NCBI RefSeq assembly: GCF_001983995.1
Contig: NZ_CP019450.1
Location: 2,046,001-2,110,000, forward strand
Length of the DNA stretch: 64,000 bases
Reading direction: 5' to 3'
Source of the DNA: Halioglobus japonicus
Lineage (GTDB): Bacteria > Pseudomonadota > Gammaproteobacteria > Pseudomonadales > Halieaceae
Shown here: positions 932-43,291 of the stretch, one piece after another
How the letters are laid out: each line of letters opens with the position of its first letter
Position numbering within the stretch: the first letter of the stretch is position 1
Translations under genes and position numbers: made by a program
The notes under the pieces: model-generated
Told to the model about the DNA's origin: nothing
The model's input: only the letters and a program-made list of their open reading frames with translations
The model's database searches: none

Positions 932-1015
932 CCGCCCGGCGGTACCAATGACAAGCGGCGCATGGTTGGAATTGCTGTACTGCGCTGCCTTCATCGATTA
1001 TTGGGAAATAACATC

Positions 1016-1699
1016 ATGACAACAGATTCACTACCGGTGCTGGCCATTCTGGGCGGCACAGGCGACCTCGGAACAGGCCTGGCACGACGCTGGGCGCAAG
1101 CTGGCTACCAGGTAATTATTGGTTCTCGCACCCAGGAAAAGGCGGATGCCGCCGTCACTGATCTCAAGGAAGTTATGGCTGAGCGCGGCGTTGCCGAGAT
1201 CAGCGTTTCTGCCGAGGAAAACCTGGCCGCCGCTGAGGCTGCAGATATTGTTGCGATTACCGTGCCTTTCAGCCACCAGGCGTCGACCCTGGAACTGGTC
1301 AAACCGGCACTCCAGGGTAAAATTCTGATCGATGTCACCGTGCCGCTGGTGCCGCCGAAAGTGGCCCGCGTACAACTGCCCGAAGGCGGCAGTGCCGGTC
1401 AGATCGCCCAGGACCTGCTGGGTGAAGAGGTTATGGTCGTGTCGGCGTTCCAGAATGTTGCCGCCGCCCACCTTCAGGAAGGCAGTAACCTGGATTGCGA
1501 TGTGCTCGTTTGTGGCAACAAGAAGGCTGCCAGGGAGCAGGTAATTACCCTGGTAGAAGCAGCGGGCATGCGCGGCTTCCATGCGGGTATGATTAATAAC
1601 GCTGCAGCAGCAGAGGCACTCACTTCCGTACTGATCGTCATCAACAAGCAGTACAGCTGTCACGCCGGTATCCGTATTACCGGCCTCGGCGACGATTGA
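1016..1699 (+). CDS. npdG: F420H2:NADP+ oxidoreductase (NADPH-dependent F420 reductase)
   Basis: Small Rossmann protein (227 residues from the ATG at 1016) with the N-terminal motif GGTGDLG and the GSRTQEKA stretch that reads the NADP 2'-phosphate, as in the Fno/NpdG family. It passes hydride between NADPH and coenzyme F420; in aerobic bacteria this is taken to supply F420H2. An in-frame ATG at 962 would add 18 residues ahead of the strand that begins the Rossmann fold; the inner start is preferred because it gives the family's usual N-terminus. It heads the operon, 16 bp before cofE, so the cofactor and its reductant supply are co-expressed. Confidence 0.88.
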   Translation: MTTDSLPVLAILGGTGDLGTGLARRWAQAGYQVIIGSRTQEKADAAVTDLKEVMAERGVAEISVSAEENLAAAEAADIVAITVPFSHQASTLELVKPALQGKILIDVTVPLVPPKVARVQLPEGGSAGQIAQDLLGEEVMVVSAFQNVAAAHLQEGSNLDCDVLVCGNKKAAREQVITLVEAAGMRGFHAGMINNAAAAEALTSVLIVINKQYSCHAGIRITGLGDD

Positions 1700-1715: not shown

Positions 1716-2483
1716 ATGAGCGGCTCCCTCCAGCTGACCGCCCTGGTGGATTTTCCCAGGGTGCAGCCCGGCGATGACCTCGCCAAGATGCTGACTGACA
1801 GCCTGGCCCACAACGGGCTTGAGCTACAGGCAGGCGATGTATTGGTGTTGGCGCAGAAAATCGTCTCCAAGGCGGAGGATTGCTACGTCCGCCTGGCAGA
1901 TGTGGAGCCCAGTGCCCAGGCGCATGAACTCGCAGCAAAAGCCGATAAAGACCCCCGCCAAGCCGAACTCATTCTCCGGGAGAGCAATGAAATTGTGCGG
2001 GTGCGTCCCGGCGTAGTTATCGTCGAACACCGCAACGGTTACGTGCACGCCAATGCCGGTATCGACAAGTCCAATATCGAAACTGCCCCGGATGACCCGC
2101 GGGTGTTGCTGTTGCCGCATGACGCCGATGCGTCTGCCGCCAGACTGCGTGCCGAACTCGGCCAGACCTGTGGCGCTGCGCCCCATATCATTATCAATGA
2201 CAGTGCCGGCCGCGCCTGGCGCAACGGCACCGTGGGCATTGCCATTGGCACTGCCGGGTTTGACCCGCTGTTCAATCAGGTGGGTGAGCTGGATATGTTC
2301 GGCAACGTGCTCGAGGTGACCGAGGCGGCAGTTGCCGATGAACTTGCTGCGGCGGCATCCTTTATCATGGGGCAGGCCGCAGAGGCCTGTCCGGTCGTGC
2401 ATGTGCGCGGTGCACGGCTCCGTGCCGCCGAGACCAACTCTCGGGTCCTGTTGCGCGATAAGGCGATGGACATGTTCCGCTAA
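1716..2483 (+). CDS. cofE: coenzyme F420-0:L-glutamate ligase
   Basis: CofE adds gamma-linked glutamates to F420-0 using GTP. The protein is 255 residues and carries the family landmarks AGIDKSN (about residue 113) and a NDSAGRAWRNGTVG stretch (about residue 168) that corresponds to the SDxFGRPWR signature. It has only the ligase domain: there is no C-terminal nitroreductase-like FMN domain as in actinobacterial FbiB. If an oxidoreductase step is needed to saturate a dehydro-F420 intermediate, it must be encoded elsewhere. The stop codon shares one base with the cofD start, indicating tight coupling. Confidence 0.92.
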   Translation: MSGSLQLTALVDFPRVQPGDDLAKMLTDSLAHNGLELQAGDVLVLAQKIVSKAEDCYVRLADVEPSAQAHELAAKADKDPRQAELILRESNEIVRVRPGVVIVEHRNGYVHANAGIDKSNIETAPDDPRVLLLPHDADASAARLRAELGQTCGAAPHIIINDSAGRAWRNGTVGIAIGTAGFDPLFNQVGELDMFGNVLEVTEAAVADELAAAASFIMGQAAEACPVVHVRGARLRAAETNSRVLLRDKAMDMFR

Positions 2484-3445
2484 TGGCTGAGCCTGTTTCG
2501 AAAACCCTTGCCCTTTCCGGCGGTGTCGGTGGGGCCAAGCTCTGCCTGGGCCTGGCGAGCGAGCTTGCAGGGCCTGATCTCGATATCCTGGTGAATACCG
2601 GCGACGATTTCGAGCATCTGGGCCTGCCCATCTGGCCGGATATCGATACCCTTCTGTATACCCTCTCGGGGCGCGCCAACCAGGTGCAGGGCTGGGGTAT
2701 TGAAGGCGAAACCTGGAATTTCATGGAAGCGCTGGAGACCCTCGGAGGTGAGACCTGGTTTCGCCTGGGCGACCGTGATCTGGCGACGCATACCTGGCGT
2801 TCCCAGGCGCTGCGCGAGGGCCGTCATGCCAGCGACATTGTTGCATCGCTGGCGAGCACCATGGGCATTGAGGCCGCGGTCTACCCCATGAGCGACGATC
2901 CAGTGCGCACTCAGGTGCACAGTGATGAAGGGGACTTGCCCTTTCAGCATTATTTTGTGCGTCGCCAGTGCGAGCCTGAGGTCACGGGCTTCAGTTTCGA
3001 GGGGATTACCTCCGCGCGGCCCAATCAAACCGTACTGCGGACACTGCAGCAGGGTGGCTACCGGCGCGTGGTCATCTGCCCCTCTAATCCCTATGTCAGT
3101 ATCGATCCAATATTGCAGGTGCCCGGTGTCTGGACTGCACTGCGCGATGCGGTGGCGCCGGTGATCGTGGTCAGTCCGATCGTGGCGGGGCTGGCGATCA
3201 AGGGGCCTGCTGCCAAAATGATGAGTGAGCTCGCCGTCCCGGTCACCGCTCTGGGTGTGGCTGAGCATTATCAACGGCGATACCCGGGCCTGGTTGACTA
3301 TTTCGTGATCGACGAAAGTGACGCTACACTGGCCCCAGAAATAGAAGCACTGGGCATCCGGGTGGAGATAGCACCAACCATTATGAAAGATCTGCAGCAC
3401 AAAATGACGCTCGCACGTCACTGTCTGGCTTTGGAGGCGATGTGA
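2483..3445 (+). CDS. cofD: 2-phospho-L-lactate transferase (CofD/FbiA)
   Basis: CofD transfers the phospholactyl (or phosphoenolpyruvyl / phosphoglyceryl) group from its GDP-activated form to FO, producing F420-0 or a close analogue. The 320-residue protein opens with GGVGGAKLCLGLA, the phosphate-binding loop typical of the family, followed by NTGDDFEHLGL, which lines the FO/GDP site. Length matches known CofD proteins. It overlaps cofE by one base upstream, and its last codons overlap the GTG of the downstream fusion gene (GTGA), so the genes are translationally coupled. Both of its substrates are predicted products of that neighbour. Confidence 0.93.
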   Translation: MAEPVSKTLALSGGVGGAKLCLGLASELAGPDLDILVNTGDDFEHLGLPIWPDIDTLLYTLSGRANQVQGWGIEGETWNFMEALETLGGETWFRLGDRDLATHTWRSQALREGRHASDIVASLASTMGIEAAVYPMSDDPVRTQVHSDEGDLPFQHYFVRRQCEPEVTGFSFEGITSARPNQTVLRTLQQGGYRRVVICPSNPYVSIDPILQVPGVWTALRDAVAPVIVVSPIVAGLAIKGPAAKMMSELAVPVTALGVAEHYQRRYPGLVDYFVIDESDATLAPEIEALGIRVEIAPTIMKDLQHKMTLARHCLALEAM

Positions 3446-6400
3446 ACAGGGCCCGCGCCATTGTGGCTCTCAAATCCCTGCAGCGTGCAAAAAGCCGGCT
3501 GGCACCCCTGTTAACGGCCGGGCAGCGGGCCGGGTTGGTTGAAGCCATGGCCGGTGACGTGCTGGCCATGCTGACCAGCCACAGGCAGGTGGGCGAGGTC
3601 TACGTGATTTCTGACGATCCCGCGGCGCATGAACTGGCGCAGCGATACGGCGCCACCGTTATTGCCGAATCTGATTTGCAGCTGAGTGGCCTGAACGGGT
3701 TGTTGACCTCGGCCAGCACCCAGTTGCGCGCCGATAACACGACTCCGCTGCTGGTGCTGCACGCAGATCTGCCGCTGTTGCGCGAAAGCGATCTCAGCGC
3801 TGTGCTGGCCGCACTGGCGGACGCCGACGTGGTTATCGGTGCGGACACGGCAGGGCAGGGCACCAACCTGCTCGCACTGGCAGAGCACGTGGAGCCTGAG
3901 TACCACTTCGGCGAAGGCAGCTTCCAGCGCCACCGGCGCTGGGCCACTCAGGCCGGTCTAAGGCAAGTTCCACTGGAACGTCCGGGTATTGGCCTGGATA
4001 TCGATGAACCTGACGATTTGGCATCGCTGCTGGCTTGTGAGCATATCGGTGAGCAAAGCGCTCGCTGGTTGCGCGACTCCGGCGTTGCCGCCCACTTCAG
4101 CCCCGCCCCTGAACTGGACTGGCAGCAGCTGCACGACACAGTTACCTCTGGCTGCACACCCGAAGCATCTCAGGCGCTGGCGCTGGCCGACTATGACGAT
4201 TTACCAGCCATGGTTTCTTTGGCTGGAACGGTGCGCGATCAGGGGTACGGCAATGTCATCACCTATTCGCGCAAAGTCTTTATTCCGCTGACCAAACTGT
4301 GTCGCGACGTCTGTCATTACTGCACCTTTGCCCAGACTCCCTCAAAACTGGAGCAGGTCTTTATGCCGGTTGAGGAAGTGCTGGAGTTGTGTCGCCAGGG
4401 AGCGGCGCAAGGATGCCAGGAAGCCCTGTTTACGTTGGGTGAGAAGCCCGAGCTGCGATACAAGGCTGCGCGTGAGGCGCTGGCTGAGATGGGCTTTTCG
4501 ACCACGCTGGAGTATGTACGCGAGGTGGCAAGTCGCGTTCTGGCGGAAACGGGCCTGTTGCCCCACATCAACGCCGGCTGTATGACCGCCGAAGAAATCG
4601 CCGCACTGCGCGAGGTGAGTGCCTCGATGGGCATTATGCTCGAATCGGCGTCCGAGCGGCTGTGCGAGCAGGGCATGCCGCACTTTGGGTCGCCCGACAA
4701 GATTCCTGCGGTGCGGTTGGAAACCATGTCGCTGGCGGGCGAGGCCGGCGTGCCGTTTACGTCCGGTATTCTCATCGGTATCGGTGAAACTCGTCGCGAG
4801 CGGATTGAGTCGCTGTTGGCCCTGCGTCGCATTCATGAGCGCCACGGCCATCTGCAGGAAGTCATTATCCAGAACTTCCGGGCCAAAGAGGGCACCCTCA
4901 TGTCGCAGGCGCCGGAGCCCGACCTGGCGGATCTGCTGTGGACGATTGCTGCGGCCCGATTGGTGTTTGGCGCCGATATGAGCATTCAGGCGCCACCCAA
5001 CCTCAGTCCAGGGGTGTTGCCCCAATTGGTAGCTGCCGGCATTAATGACTGGGGCGGTGTATCTCCTCTTACCCCGGATCACGTCAATCCTGAGGCGCCC
5101 TGGCCGCACTTGCAGGAGCTGGCCCGGGAGACTGCGGCGGCGGGTAAGTTCCTCGATCAGCGGCTGACGATTTATCCTGCGTATATTCGCGATGCCGAGC
5201 GCTGGCTTGCCCCGGGTATGTTCGGTCCGGTAATGCAGCAGTGCGATGCCGCCGGCTATGCCCGCCGCGACAGCTGGGTGCCCGGTGAAGAGCGGCCGGT
5301 ACCTGATGTGGACGCTGAACTGTTGCGCGAGACGCCATCCCAGATCGCCCCCAGTCACGATATTCGTGCCATCGTGGCTCGGGCCGTCGCGGGAGAAGCC
5401 CTGCTTGTGGCCGAAGTAACGCAGCTATTTGAGGTCCGCGGCGCCGATTTTTCCCATGTGGTGCAGGCGGCAGACACACTGCGTGCGACTCAGGTTGGAG
5501 AAGAGGTGACCTATACGGTTAACCGGAATATCAATTACACCAACGTCTGCTACTTCAAATGCCAGTTCTGCGCCTTTTCCAAAGGTAAGCAAAGCGAGAA
5601 CCTGCGCGGCCGACCCTACGATATCAGTGGCGAAGAGATTGCCCGACGCTGCATAGAGGCCTGGGATCGCGGCGCCGGTGAAGTCTGTATGCAGGGCGGG
5701 ATTCATCCGGATTACACTGGCCAGACCTATCTGGATATTATCGCGACGGTGCGCAGTGCCACGCCGGATATGCACATCCACGCGTTTTCACCGCTGGAGG
5801 TGTGGCAGGGAGCCGCGACCCTGAACCTGCCCGTGGCCGATTACCTGCGCAAATTGAAAGCGTCGGGGCTCGATACGCTGCCTGGAACCGCGGCGGAAAT
5901 TCTTCACGATGATGTCCGCGCCATCCTGTGTCCTGACAAGCTCAACAGCGGGCAGTGGCTGGAGGTGATGGAAGCTGCCCATGAGGTGGGGCTGCGCAGC
6001 ACTGCAACTATTATGTACGGCCACATTGAGTCGCCCCAGCACTGGGCTCATCACCTGCTGGCGGTGCGAGATTTGCAGCAACGCACGGGTGGGTTTACCG
6101 AATTTGTGCCTCTGCCATTTGTGCATATGGAAGCCCCCATGTATCTCAAGGGTCGGGCCCGCAAAGGCCCGACCTTCCGTGAAGCAGTGCTCATGCACGC
6201 GGTCGCGAGGCTGGTGTTTGCAGGCCTGATTGACAATATCCAGACCTCCTGGGTGAAGATGGGAGAGGCCGGCGTTGGGGCCTGTCTCGACGCGGGTGCG
6301 AATGATCTGGGCGGCACACTGATGAACGAGAGCATTACTCGCGCAGCCGGCTCCGGCCACGGTCAGGAATGGGCGCCGCAGCACATGGAGAACCAGATTG

Positions 6401-6609
6401 AGCGCGCCGGTCGCGTGCCGCGCATGCGCACGACGCTTTATCGCAAGCCGCGTGTGGAGCAGCGCATGAAGGCATTTAACGCGCCGGCGCTGGGGCCGGC
6501 GGTCAACGAGGGTGCGGGTAAGCGCGAACGCAGCAAGTTGATCCCCACCATCAACATTCAGGCCGACGCCGGCACTGATCAGGTGTACTTGATGGCGGCC
6601 TGTGATTGA
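3442..6609 (+). CDS. cofC/cofG/cofH: CofC-CofG-CofH trifunctional fusion (guanylyltransferase plus FO synthase)
   Basis: One uninterrupted 1055-residue frame holds three F420 enzymes. Residues 1 to about 195 are a CofC-type phospholactate guanylyltransferase ([10 protein letters not shown] near the N-terminus, LDIDEPDD near its end). After a linker, CofG begins near residue 235 with radical-SAM cysteines C287, C291 and C294. CofH follows with C703, C707 and C710 (CYFKCQFC). Together CofG and CofH are the two halves of FO synthase, which condense a tyrosine-derived fragment with the flavin precursor to give the deazaflavin FO. The CofG-CofH arrangement matches actinobacterial FbiC (about 850 residues), but an N-terminal CofC is not part of that layout. 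The GTG start overlaps cofD. Whether CofC uses 2-phospholactate, PEP or 3-phosphoglycerate cannot be decided by eye. Confidence 0.93.
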
Positions 6610-7303
6610 GGTGACGGGCCGTGAGGTGCAGTTGGAGCCGAGCTGGCTGGCTCACCTGGGTAAAGAGTTCGACCAGGCTTATATGCAGGAATTGCGCGAC
6701 TTCCTGCGCGCCGAAAAGGCTGCCGGTAAGCGCATTTTTCCCCGCGGCAGCGAGTTCTTCAGCGCCTTCAGCCACACGCCACTAGCCGATGTGAAAGTTG
6801 TTATTCTCGGTCAGGACCCCTACCACGGCGAGGGCCAGGCCCACGGGCTGTGCTTCTCGGTGCAGCCGGGTGTGAAAGTGCCGCCCTCGTTGAAGAATAT
6901 CTATAAGGAGATCAATGCCGAGCTCGGTCTCCCGATTCCGACCCACGGTCACCTTACTGCCTGGGCGAGCCAGGGGGTGCTGCTGCTGAACAGTGTACTG
7001 TCGGTAGAGTGCGCCCAGGCCGCTTCACATCAGGGCAAGGGATGGGAGAGGTTTACCGATAAGGTGATCGAGGTGATTAACCGCGAGCGCGAAGGGGTGG
7101 TGTTTCTGCTTTGGGGCAGCTATGCCCAGCGCAAGGGCGCCATTATTGATACGGAGCGCCACTGCGTGCTCAAGGCGCCGCATCCTTCGCCGCTAAGTGC
7201 TCATCGCGGTTTCTTCCGGTGCGGCCATTTTGCCGCCGCCAATCATTATCTGCAGGGCAGGGGGCAGGCGCCGGTGGATTGGTCGCTGCCCGCCGAGGCC
7301 TGA
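6602..7303 (+). CDS. ung: uracil-DNA glycosylase
   Basis: Family-1 UDG that removes uracil from DNA. The catalytic water-activating motif GQDPYHG and the C-terminal [12 protein letters not shown] loop are intact, and the 233-residue length is typical. The GTG start at 6602 lies inside the last codons of the CofC-CofG-CofH gene, an 8-base overlap, so ung seems translated from the F420 operon mRNA. A later start near the conserved core is not apparent. It converges with the phosphoribosyltransferase gene, the two stop codons being one base apart. Confidence 0.95.
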
Positions 7304-42031: not shown

Positions 42032-42409
42032 CATGTTCGCATCGATCGTCGTTGCCAACAGGCAAGTGGCTAGGTTTCTACCTAATCTAGTGTTTTGATT
42101 TCGACAGCGTTACCTCGCCACTGCTATGCCTCTTTGGAGCTGAGACAGATATGGGACTGATCTCAGTCAATCAAGAGAATATCAGCCTGAGGCGCTGCTG
42201 GTAGCAGCAAGCGCCCTATAAAGATTGGAGAGCATATGTTGTTATAAATACCGCGTTAATAGGCGCAATCTTATACCTTATGTCGGTTAGTCGGTAGACA
42301 TTGCCTCGCCGGTCCCGCATTTTGGATGCTTAATTCGGCGCGTACGGTGCGCTTTCTTAGTAATATTCGTCTGATAAATATTTGACGCTTGGACGATAAG
42401 GGATTGAAA
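42032..42409. other. intergenic stretch with no recognisable feature
   Basis: 378 bp, less GC-rich than its surroundings, with only short frames on both strands and no obvious hairpin terminator. It probably holds the promoter of the LLM oxidoreductase gene, but no clear -35/-10 pair stands out. Confidence 0.4.
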
Positions 42410-43291
42410 ATGAAGAAACAGAATATAGGCAAGCTCGGTATCTGGAGCTGGATGGACAACAATAATTTCGATGAGTGCCGGGCGTTCGCTCAGCGCGCAG
42501 AGAGTCAAGGCTACGGTGCCATATGGGTCCCAGATGCCGTAGGTAGAGATCCCTTTGTCACTTTGTCGGTTATAGCAGAAGCCACTGAAACGCTCTGCGT
42601 TGCCACCGGCATCGTCAACCTATATGGCCGTGACGCGATGGCGATGAAGGCGTCCCGCAATTCGCTAGACGAGTTGAGCGGCGGCCGTCTGATTCTAGGC
42701 ATCGGAGTTTCGCACGCGGAGATGGTGGGCGGTCTCCGCCAACAGGAATACGGTAAACCCCTGACGACCATGCGCAACTATCTGCAGCGTATGGAGGAGG
42801 CCATGTATATGGGCCCCCAGCCTGAAAAGCAGGGCCTGCTGGTACTGGCAGCGCTGCGCGAAAAAATGCTCGGGCTTTCAGGTAGCAATGCAGATGGCGC
42901 ACACCCGTACTTTGTAACGCCAGAGCACACCGCCCGGGCCCGCAGTATTCTCGGTCCAGATAAGTTTCTCGCGCCCGAGCAGAAAGTGCTGCTAGAAACC
43001 GACGCCACTAAGGCCCGCGAAATCGCCCGCGGCGCCATGGCGATGTATCTCGGTCTGCCGAATTACCGCAATAATTTGCTCACTCTGGGCTTTGAAGAGG
43101 CCGACTTTGACGATGGCGGTAGTGATCGGCTGGTTGACGCGATTGTCGCTTGGGGAGACGAAACTGCCATCATGAAGCGTATTGAATCGCACTGGGAGAA
43201 TGGCGCGGACCACGTGTGTATTCAGGCCCTGCGCAAAGACGGCGTCAATGGTTTTGACCCCGTGGCCATCGACGCCCTGGCGCCGGGCTAA
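42410..43291 (+). CDS. LLM-class F420-dependent oxidoreductase
   Basis: Luciferase-like TIM-barrel protein of 293 residues. GKLGIWSW at the start, QGYGAIWVPDAVGRDP, VATGIVNLYGRD and LILGIGVSH follow the actinobacterial F420-dependent subfamily (TIGR03620-like) rather than FMN-dependent alkanal monooxygenases. Start at ATG 42410 with AAGGGA upstream. Because the same window encodes F420 synthesis and an F420 reductase, F420H2 is the probable cofactor; the substrate is unknown. It is about 36 kb from the cof operon. Confidence 0.8.
   Translation: MKKQNIGKLGIWSWMDNNNFDECRAFAQRAESQGYGAIWVPDAVGRDPFVTLSVIAEATETLCVATGIVNLYGRDAMAMKASRNSLDELSGGRLILGIGVSHAEMVGGLRQQEYGKPLTTMRNYLQRMEEAMYMGPQPEKQGLLVLAALREKMLGLSGSNADGAHPYFVTPEHTARARSILGPDKFLAPEQKVLLETDATKAREIARGAMAMYLGLPNYRNNLLTLGFEEADFDDGGSDRLVDAIVAWGDETAIMKRIESHWENGADHVCIQALRKDGVNGFDPVAIDALAPG

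Follow-up and report, generated by a model that had tools for sequence, protein, structure and literature searches.

A CofC-CofG-CofH fusion among the F420 biosynthesis genes of Halioglobus japonicus and its relatives

Introduction

Fused enzymes are already familiar in F420 biosynthesis. FbiC joins CofG and CofH in a bifunctional FO synthase, and its two halves exchange their intermediate by diffusion according to a review that cites others (PMC8498797, excerpt). FbiB likewise arises from a gene fusion in this pathway and joins CofE to a nitroreductase domain (PMC8498797, excerpt). In rhizobia and their kin, CofC is fused to CofE. The activity of CofC has been seen only together with CofD, and its product, GPPG, stays on CofC (PMC8498797, PMC8764529, excerpts). 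Passage of a labile intermediate from CofC to CofD has been proposed for the unfused enzymes (PMC8764529, excerpt). FO crosses membranes and gets lost, while F420-0 is retained (PMC8498797, excerpt). Here we describe a frame from Halioglobus japonicus in which CofC is joined to both halves of FO synthase.

The fusion gene and its neighbours

The window, a stretch of 64,000 nucleotides of the H. japonicus genome (GCF_001983995.1, contig NZ_CP019450.1, positions 2,046,001 to 2,110,000 of the forward strand), contains a single forward-strand frame at 3442..6609 that encodes 1055 aa from a GTG start, with GGAGG a few bases 5' of it. Its N-terminal domain is the phospho-acid guanylyltransferase CofC (aa 5-199, 3454..4038), which scores 165.1 bits with TIGR03552 against an NCBIfam cut-off of 105. 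A join of predicted mostly helical structure (aa 200-273, 4039..4260) leads to the radical-SAM domain CofG (aa 274-592, 4261..5217; TIGR03550, 497.4 bits, cut-off 213.35), followed by the radical-SAM domain CofH (aa 657-1002, 5410..6447; TIGR03551, 574.6 bits, cut-off 374.1). The NCBIfam CofGH model PRK09234 scores 1140.3 against a cut-off of 1018. The initial sequence-only reading of this frame, as CofC followed by both FO synthase halves with intact cysteine triads, is confirmed: all three domains exceed their NCBIfam cut-offs, and the CxxxCxxC motifs lie, with the numbering given then, at C287-x3-C291-x2-C294 (aa 287-294, 4300..4323) and C703-x3-C707-x2-C710 (aa 703-710, 5548..5571). The fusion is the sole CofC match and the only CofG above cut-off in a genome with a completeness rating of 99.98%.

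The gene belongs to what looks like an operon, in the order npdG/fno, cofE, cofD, fusion, ung, all on the forward strand. The NADPH-dependent F420 reductase gene npdG/fno occupies 1013..1699 (an earlier ATG, the first of the frame, stands at 962; TIGR01915, 196.9 bits, cut-off 149.8), and the F420-0:glutamate ligase gene cofE, of 255 aa, occupies 1716..2483 (TIGR01916, 252.2 bits). The 2-phospho-L-lactate transferase gene cofD, of 320 aa (2483..3445; TIGR01819, 274.3 bits, cut-off 257.45), does lie just upstream of the fusion, as had been noted, and overlaps it by 4 bases (GTGA). The cofE/cofD overlap is 1 base, and the fusion overlaps a downstream ung-like uracil-DNA glycosylase gene (6602..7303; PF03167, 67.9 bits) by 8 bases. 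This DNA repair gene is linked to F420 synthesis more widely, adjoining cofH in 56 loci of the family. A luciferase-like protein further along the window (42389-43291, forward strand; PF00296 match) may be an F420-dependent enzyme.

No nitroreductase domain was found in the window's CofE, for which Pfam gives F420_ligase only. Nor does any FbiB-type dehydro-F420 reductase, the enzyme sought as a mark of the PEP-type pathway, score above the TIGR03553 cut-off in the genome; six nitroreductase-family matches are present, and the best TIGR03553 score, 56.1 against 249.55, lies in a BluB.

Active-site residues and predicted structure

In a phmmer alignment, L84, D109, G157, S160, D186 and D188 of the fusion correspond to L92, D116, G163, S166, D188 and D190 of Mycobacterium tuberculosis FbiD, and all six are invariant across 57 aligned fused proteins. 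K17 is invariant in the same set, and K11, aligned to FbiD K17, is nearly so. At the position of FbiD T148, a main-chain contact (PMC8764529, excerpt), the window has T141, a residue neither invariant nor nearly so in the 57 proteins. Although this position varies, the metal-binding Asp triad and the substrate-binding residues of FbiD, whose roles are taken from PMC8764529 (excerpt), are present in the fusion's CofC domain. In 3-PG enzymes the residue aligned to FbiD G163 is characteristically Ser or Thr (PMC8764529, excerpt). A 3-phosphoglycerate-type CofC, as in the 3PG-F420 pathway, was considered and rejected, the residue at this diagnostic position being Gly (G157), invariant in the 57. 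The six radical-SAM cysteines of the two motifs are likewise all invariant.

The predicted structure of the fusion (pLDDT 85.1, pTM 0.76) comprises CofC, biotin-synthase-like and MqnE-like folds. Across the join, block pLDDT is 75-95, with predicted helices at aa 204-213, 215-219, 227-235, 242-250 and 254-269.

Distribution of the fusion

Of the 120 homologues listed, 59 combine CofC with radical-SAM domains at lengths of 1034-1103 aa, among them proteins of Halioglobus maricola (77% identity), Seongchinamella, Haliea and Mangrovimicrobium. Where source names of these proteins are printed, they refer to CofH or FO synthase and leave CofC out, so cofC can appear absent from such genomes. A search with the CofC region gave 23 matches among the 8000 candidates with the most shared words, all with CofC and radical-SAM domains. 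Among the best 80 of 586 named genome loci, a set that may omit records near the window, CofC is in the locus in 56; the CofC and CofG frames differ in 53 and are fused in three (Seongchinamella unica, Halieaceae bacterium UBA5085 and Mangrovimicrobium sediminis). Because these searches covered the best 8000 candidates and the best 80 of 586 loci, distant fusions may go undetected.

Within the window's family, CofC lies in a fused frame in 20 of 140 genomes: eight in the window's genus, which are all of its genomes in the scan (one cut by a contig end), the eight listed for genus g9, and a single genome in each of four further genera. The comparison covered 97 loci, 83 from the family (window included; 82 genomes, G028 giving two) and 14 others; the 83 exclude genomes of the family whose CofC match was weaker or was not fetched, such as G016, G072, G080, G081, G084 and G089. 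In 20 of the 83 family loci the two genes form one frame; in the other 63 they stand apart and in different frames. Elsewhere in the class, the 14 other genomes of a 369-genome sample with a CofC match at E < 1e-15 have frames of 208-298 aa. A 398-genome sample of the phylum gave three matches at E < 1e-15 besides the window: a 229-aa frame in G648, a CofC-CofE frame in G687, and G630, with CofGH in another frame (CofC frame unscanned).

The description of the fusion as unusual, made from the sequence alone, calls for some restriction: 20 of the 83 loci compared in the family itself are fused, while the 14 other class members have short frames. The converse, that the fusion is common and already described, applies in its first part, with about a quarter of family loci fused, but no published description of a CofC-CofG-CofH fusion was found in titles or abstract starts of the open-licence literature searched. 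A genomics paper on Halieaceae (PMC10100682) gave 0 matches for F420 or Cof.

Some loci are odd in other ways. Genome G028 carries, about 40 kb from its fused locus (L089) and on the same contig, a second, divergent, unfused fno-cofC-cofGH cluster (L088); neither cofD nor cofE was found in the stretch with this cluster, which reaches the contig start. In G042 (L077), a CofG-only frame of 436 aa lies between cofC and ung, and CofH is absent from the locus, perhaps through an assembly gap. Two metagenome-assembled genome records titled Klebsiella pneumoniae (L185, L195) have FO synthase genes that resemble those of marine Pseudomonadales, and the titles appear wrong.

Origin of the fusion

Placement of the fused loci in a single CofGH clade is rejected (p-AU 5.2e-5, 60-row tree). 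Changes between the fused and separate states number at least seven on CofGH trees of both 85 and 60 rows (bootstrap 5-95% range 6-7, 60 rows), and the starred branches force at least five changes in the careful tree (60 rows) and at least three in quick trees. The 60-row trees take in 19 of the 20 fused loci, the contig of L090 ending without CofH, and omit genus g21, L069, L082, L088, L115 and all outgroup loci except three. While the AU test rejects a single origin as one clade, one early fusion followed by seven fissions takes eight steps, one above the minimum of seven; by this count repeated fusion is therefore favoured rather than proven.

The spacing of the two domains, measured from CofC D188 to CofG K278, is 201-318 nt in fused loci (median 267, n=20) and has a median of 332 nt in separate pairs (n=48, genus g21 left out). 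All eight fused loci of the window's genus have a spacing of 267 nt, those of g9 have 288, 303 or 204 nt, and the remaining four genera have 201, 207, 267 and 318 nt. This group-specific spacing, together with separate genes of similar spacing and overlap, favours repeated fusion. The 267-nt spacing of G053, which belongs to another genus and matches the window's genus, and the separate genes of G132, nested within the fused genus g9 and possibly a fission, point to a degree of common history or to fission.

The 20 fused family loci are in frame by definition. The 63 separate pairs divide 47 and 16 between the two out-of-frame offsets, and 10 cofC/cofGH pairs from other families divide into eight out of frame and two in frame. 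In four chosen fused/separate pairs (54-70% identity), one of several alignment gaps sits on the stop/start overlap. The fusion would derive from adjacent, often overlapping cofC and cofGH genes; most likely it arose several times, and small deletions where stop and start overlap are the probable route.

Proposed function

The protein is probably a trifunctional F420 enzyme, most likely fused several times from cofC and cofGH, that would couple FO synthesis to activation of the acid. Its architecture, conserved active-site residues, sole genome copies, patchy recurrence and boundary specificity are observed; its catalysis, the direction and mechanism of the change and any kinetic benefit of fusion are inferred. 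The CofC domain would guanylylate a phospho-acid, of the 2-phospholactate or phosphoenolpyruvate type and probably not 3-phosphoglycerate, the CofG and CofH domains would make FO, and CofD, a protein of its own encoded by the upstream gene that overlaps the fusion, would join the activated acid to FO. Most likely, the fusion would keep the enzymes of FO synthesis and labile-acid activation at a 1:1 ratio and in one place, so that FO, which leaks through membranes, would be charged as it is made. Because FO leaks, the halves of FbiC reportedly exchange by diffusion and a CofC-CofD hand-over is already proposed for unfused enzymes, the likeliest benefit, if there is one, would be quick charging of FO through a fixed ratio and location. 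It is doubtful, by our estimate, that selection repeatedly produced an FO-capture enzyme, in which CofC tethered to FO synthase would act with CofD to prevent FO loss, evolving several times in this family of marine bacteria at the cofC/cofGH boundary and never at cofD/cofC in the loci read.

The joining might instead be neutral, a tentative possibility in which chance deletions in a tightly packed operon were tolerated because the C-terminus of CofC and the N-terminus of CofG happen to be free, and the trifunctional protein works as the separate enzymes do. Such an origin would fit the interleaving of fused and separate states among relatives, the diffusion reported between FbiC halves (PMC8498797, excerpt), and a fusion partner that varies by lineage, CofGH in this family and CofE in rhizobia and their kin. 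Among the latter, both the CofC and CofE domains are present in 87 of 91 matches, most of them without a name (P0121-P0206); named carriers include Mesorhizobium, Labrys and Aquamicrobium, and the frame in G687 lies at L171:5209-6573 on the reverse strand. Joining of CofC thus need not involve FO synthase. Neutrality sits less easily with the boundaries of the family loci, where adjacent pairs number 78 for fno-cofE, 79 for cofE-cofD, 81 for cofD-cofC, 83 for cofC-cofG and 56 for cofH-ung, and only cofC/cofG is ever fused (20/83, against 0/78, 0/79, 0/81 and 0/56 at the others), a pattern that structural constraint could also explain. The presence of the fusion in all eight scanned genomes of the window's genus, including the one cut short, also argues against it.

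The sequence-only reading had suggested that the fusion channels both of its products to CofD. True channelling, in which a stable complex of fusion and CofD passes the guanylylated acid and FO directly to CofD, is unlikely in our judgement. It would agree with the reported dependence of CofC activity on CofD and the retention of GPPG on CofC (PMC8498797, PMC8764529, excerpts), and with the 4-base overlap of cofD and the fusion gene. However, the hand-over has been proposed for unfused enzymes too (PMC8764529, excerpt) and therefore needs no fusion, and the FbiC halves reportedly exchange by diffusion (PMC8498797, excerpt). If the CofC product were channelled to CofD, CofD-CofC is the fusion one would most expect, yet it occurs in none of 81 family pairs and none of 8 from elsewhere; the partner of CofC in rhizobia and their kin is CofE.

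It is far less probable that the long frame yields separate CofC and CofGH proteins through internal initiation or proteolysis. A cofGH start is possible at the cofC stop in 40 of the 63 separate relatives (25 at -1, 13 at +2, 2 at -4), 26 of the 40 with a Shine-Dalgarno-like 4-mer, and 9 of the 20 fused loci have such a 4-mer upstream of one or more in-frame starts in the scanned stretch, in two of them (G025 and G021) near the old start; the other 11, window included, have none, in a scan without chance control. By the same uncontrolled scan, no Shine-Dalgarno-like 4-mer precedes any of the five in-frame start codons in the window's linker, and the join is predicted to be helical, with no loose linker. 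An assembly or gene-boundary artefact, such as a missed stop between CofC and CofG, has next to no probability and is excluded by independent genomes, the same architecture recurring in 59 of the 120 homologues listed, from records of several sources, and in the isolates Halioglobus maricola, Seongchinamella unica and Mangrovimicrobium sediminis.

Comparison with known systems

The fusion brings an architecture of three domains into F420 biosynthesis. Its natural fused and unfused relatives form a test set for FO loss or for protection of the labile intermediate, and one gene with three steps could ease F420 production in other hosts.

With FbiC and FbiB already known, the CofC-CofG-CofH protein is therefore a further variant of such fusions. 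Its C-terminal ~800 aa are like FbiC and pass PRK09234; with CofG and CofH above cut-off in one chain and two CxxxCxxC motifs, they would count by sequence as an FbiC-type FO synthase, to which the window's protein adds an N-terminal CofC domain. That domain has the fold and catalytic residues of stand-alone CofC/FbiD, as solved in 6bwg, 2i5e and 7p97, but is here the N-terminal domain of an FO synthase. FbiB joins other domains, and the window's CofE is without a nitroreductase domain. The rhizobial CofC-CofE proteins come close in design, with CofC likewise N-terminal on another enzyme of the pathway, but the partner there is the glutamate ligase and here it is FO synthase. The CofC-CofG-CofH fusion is thus genuine, patchily distributed and new among the known fusions of the F420 pathway.
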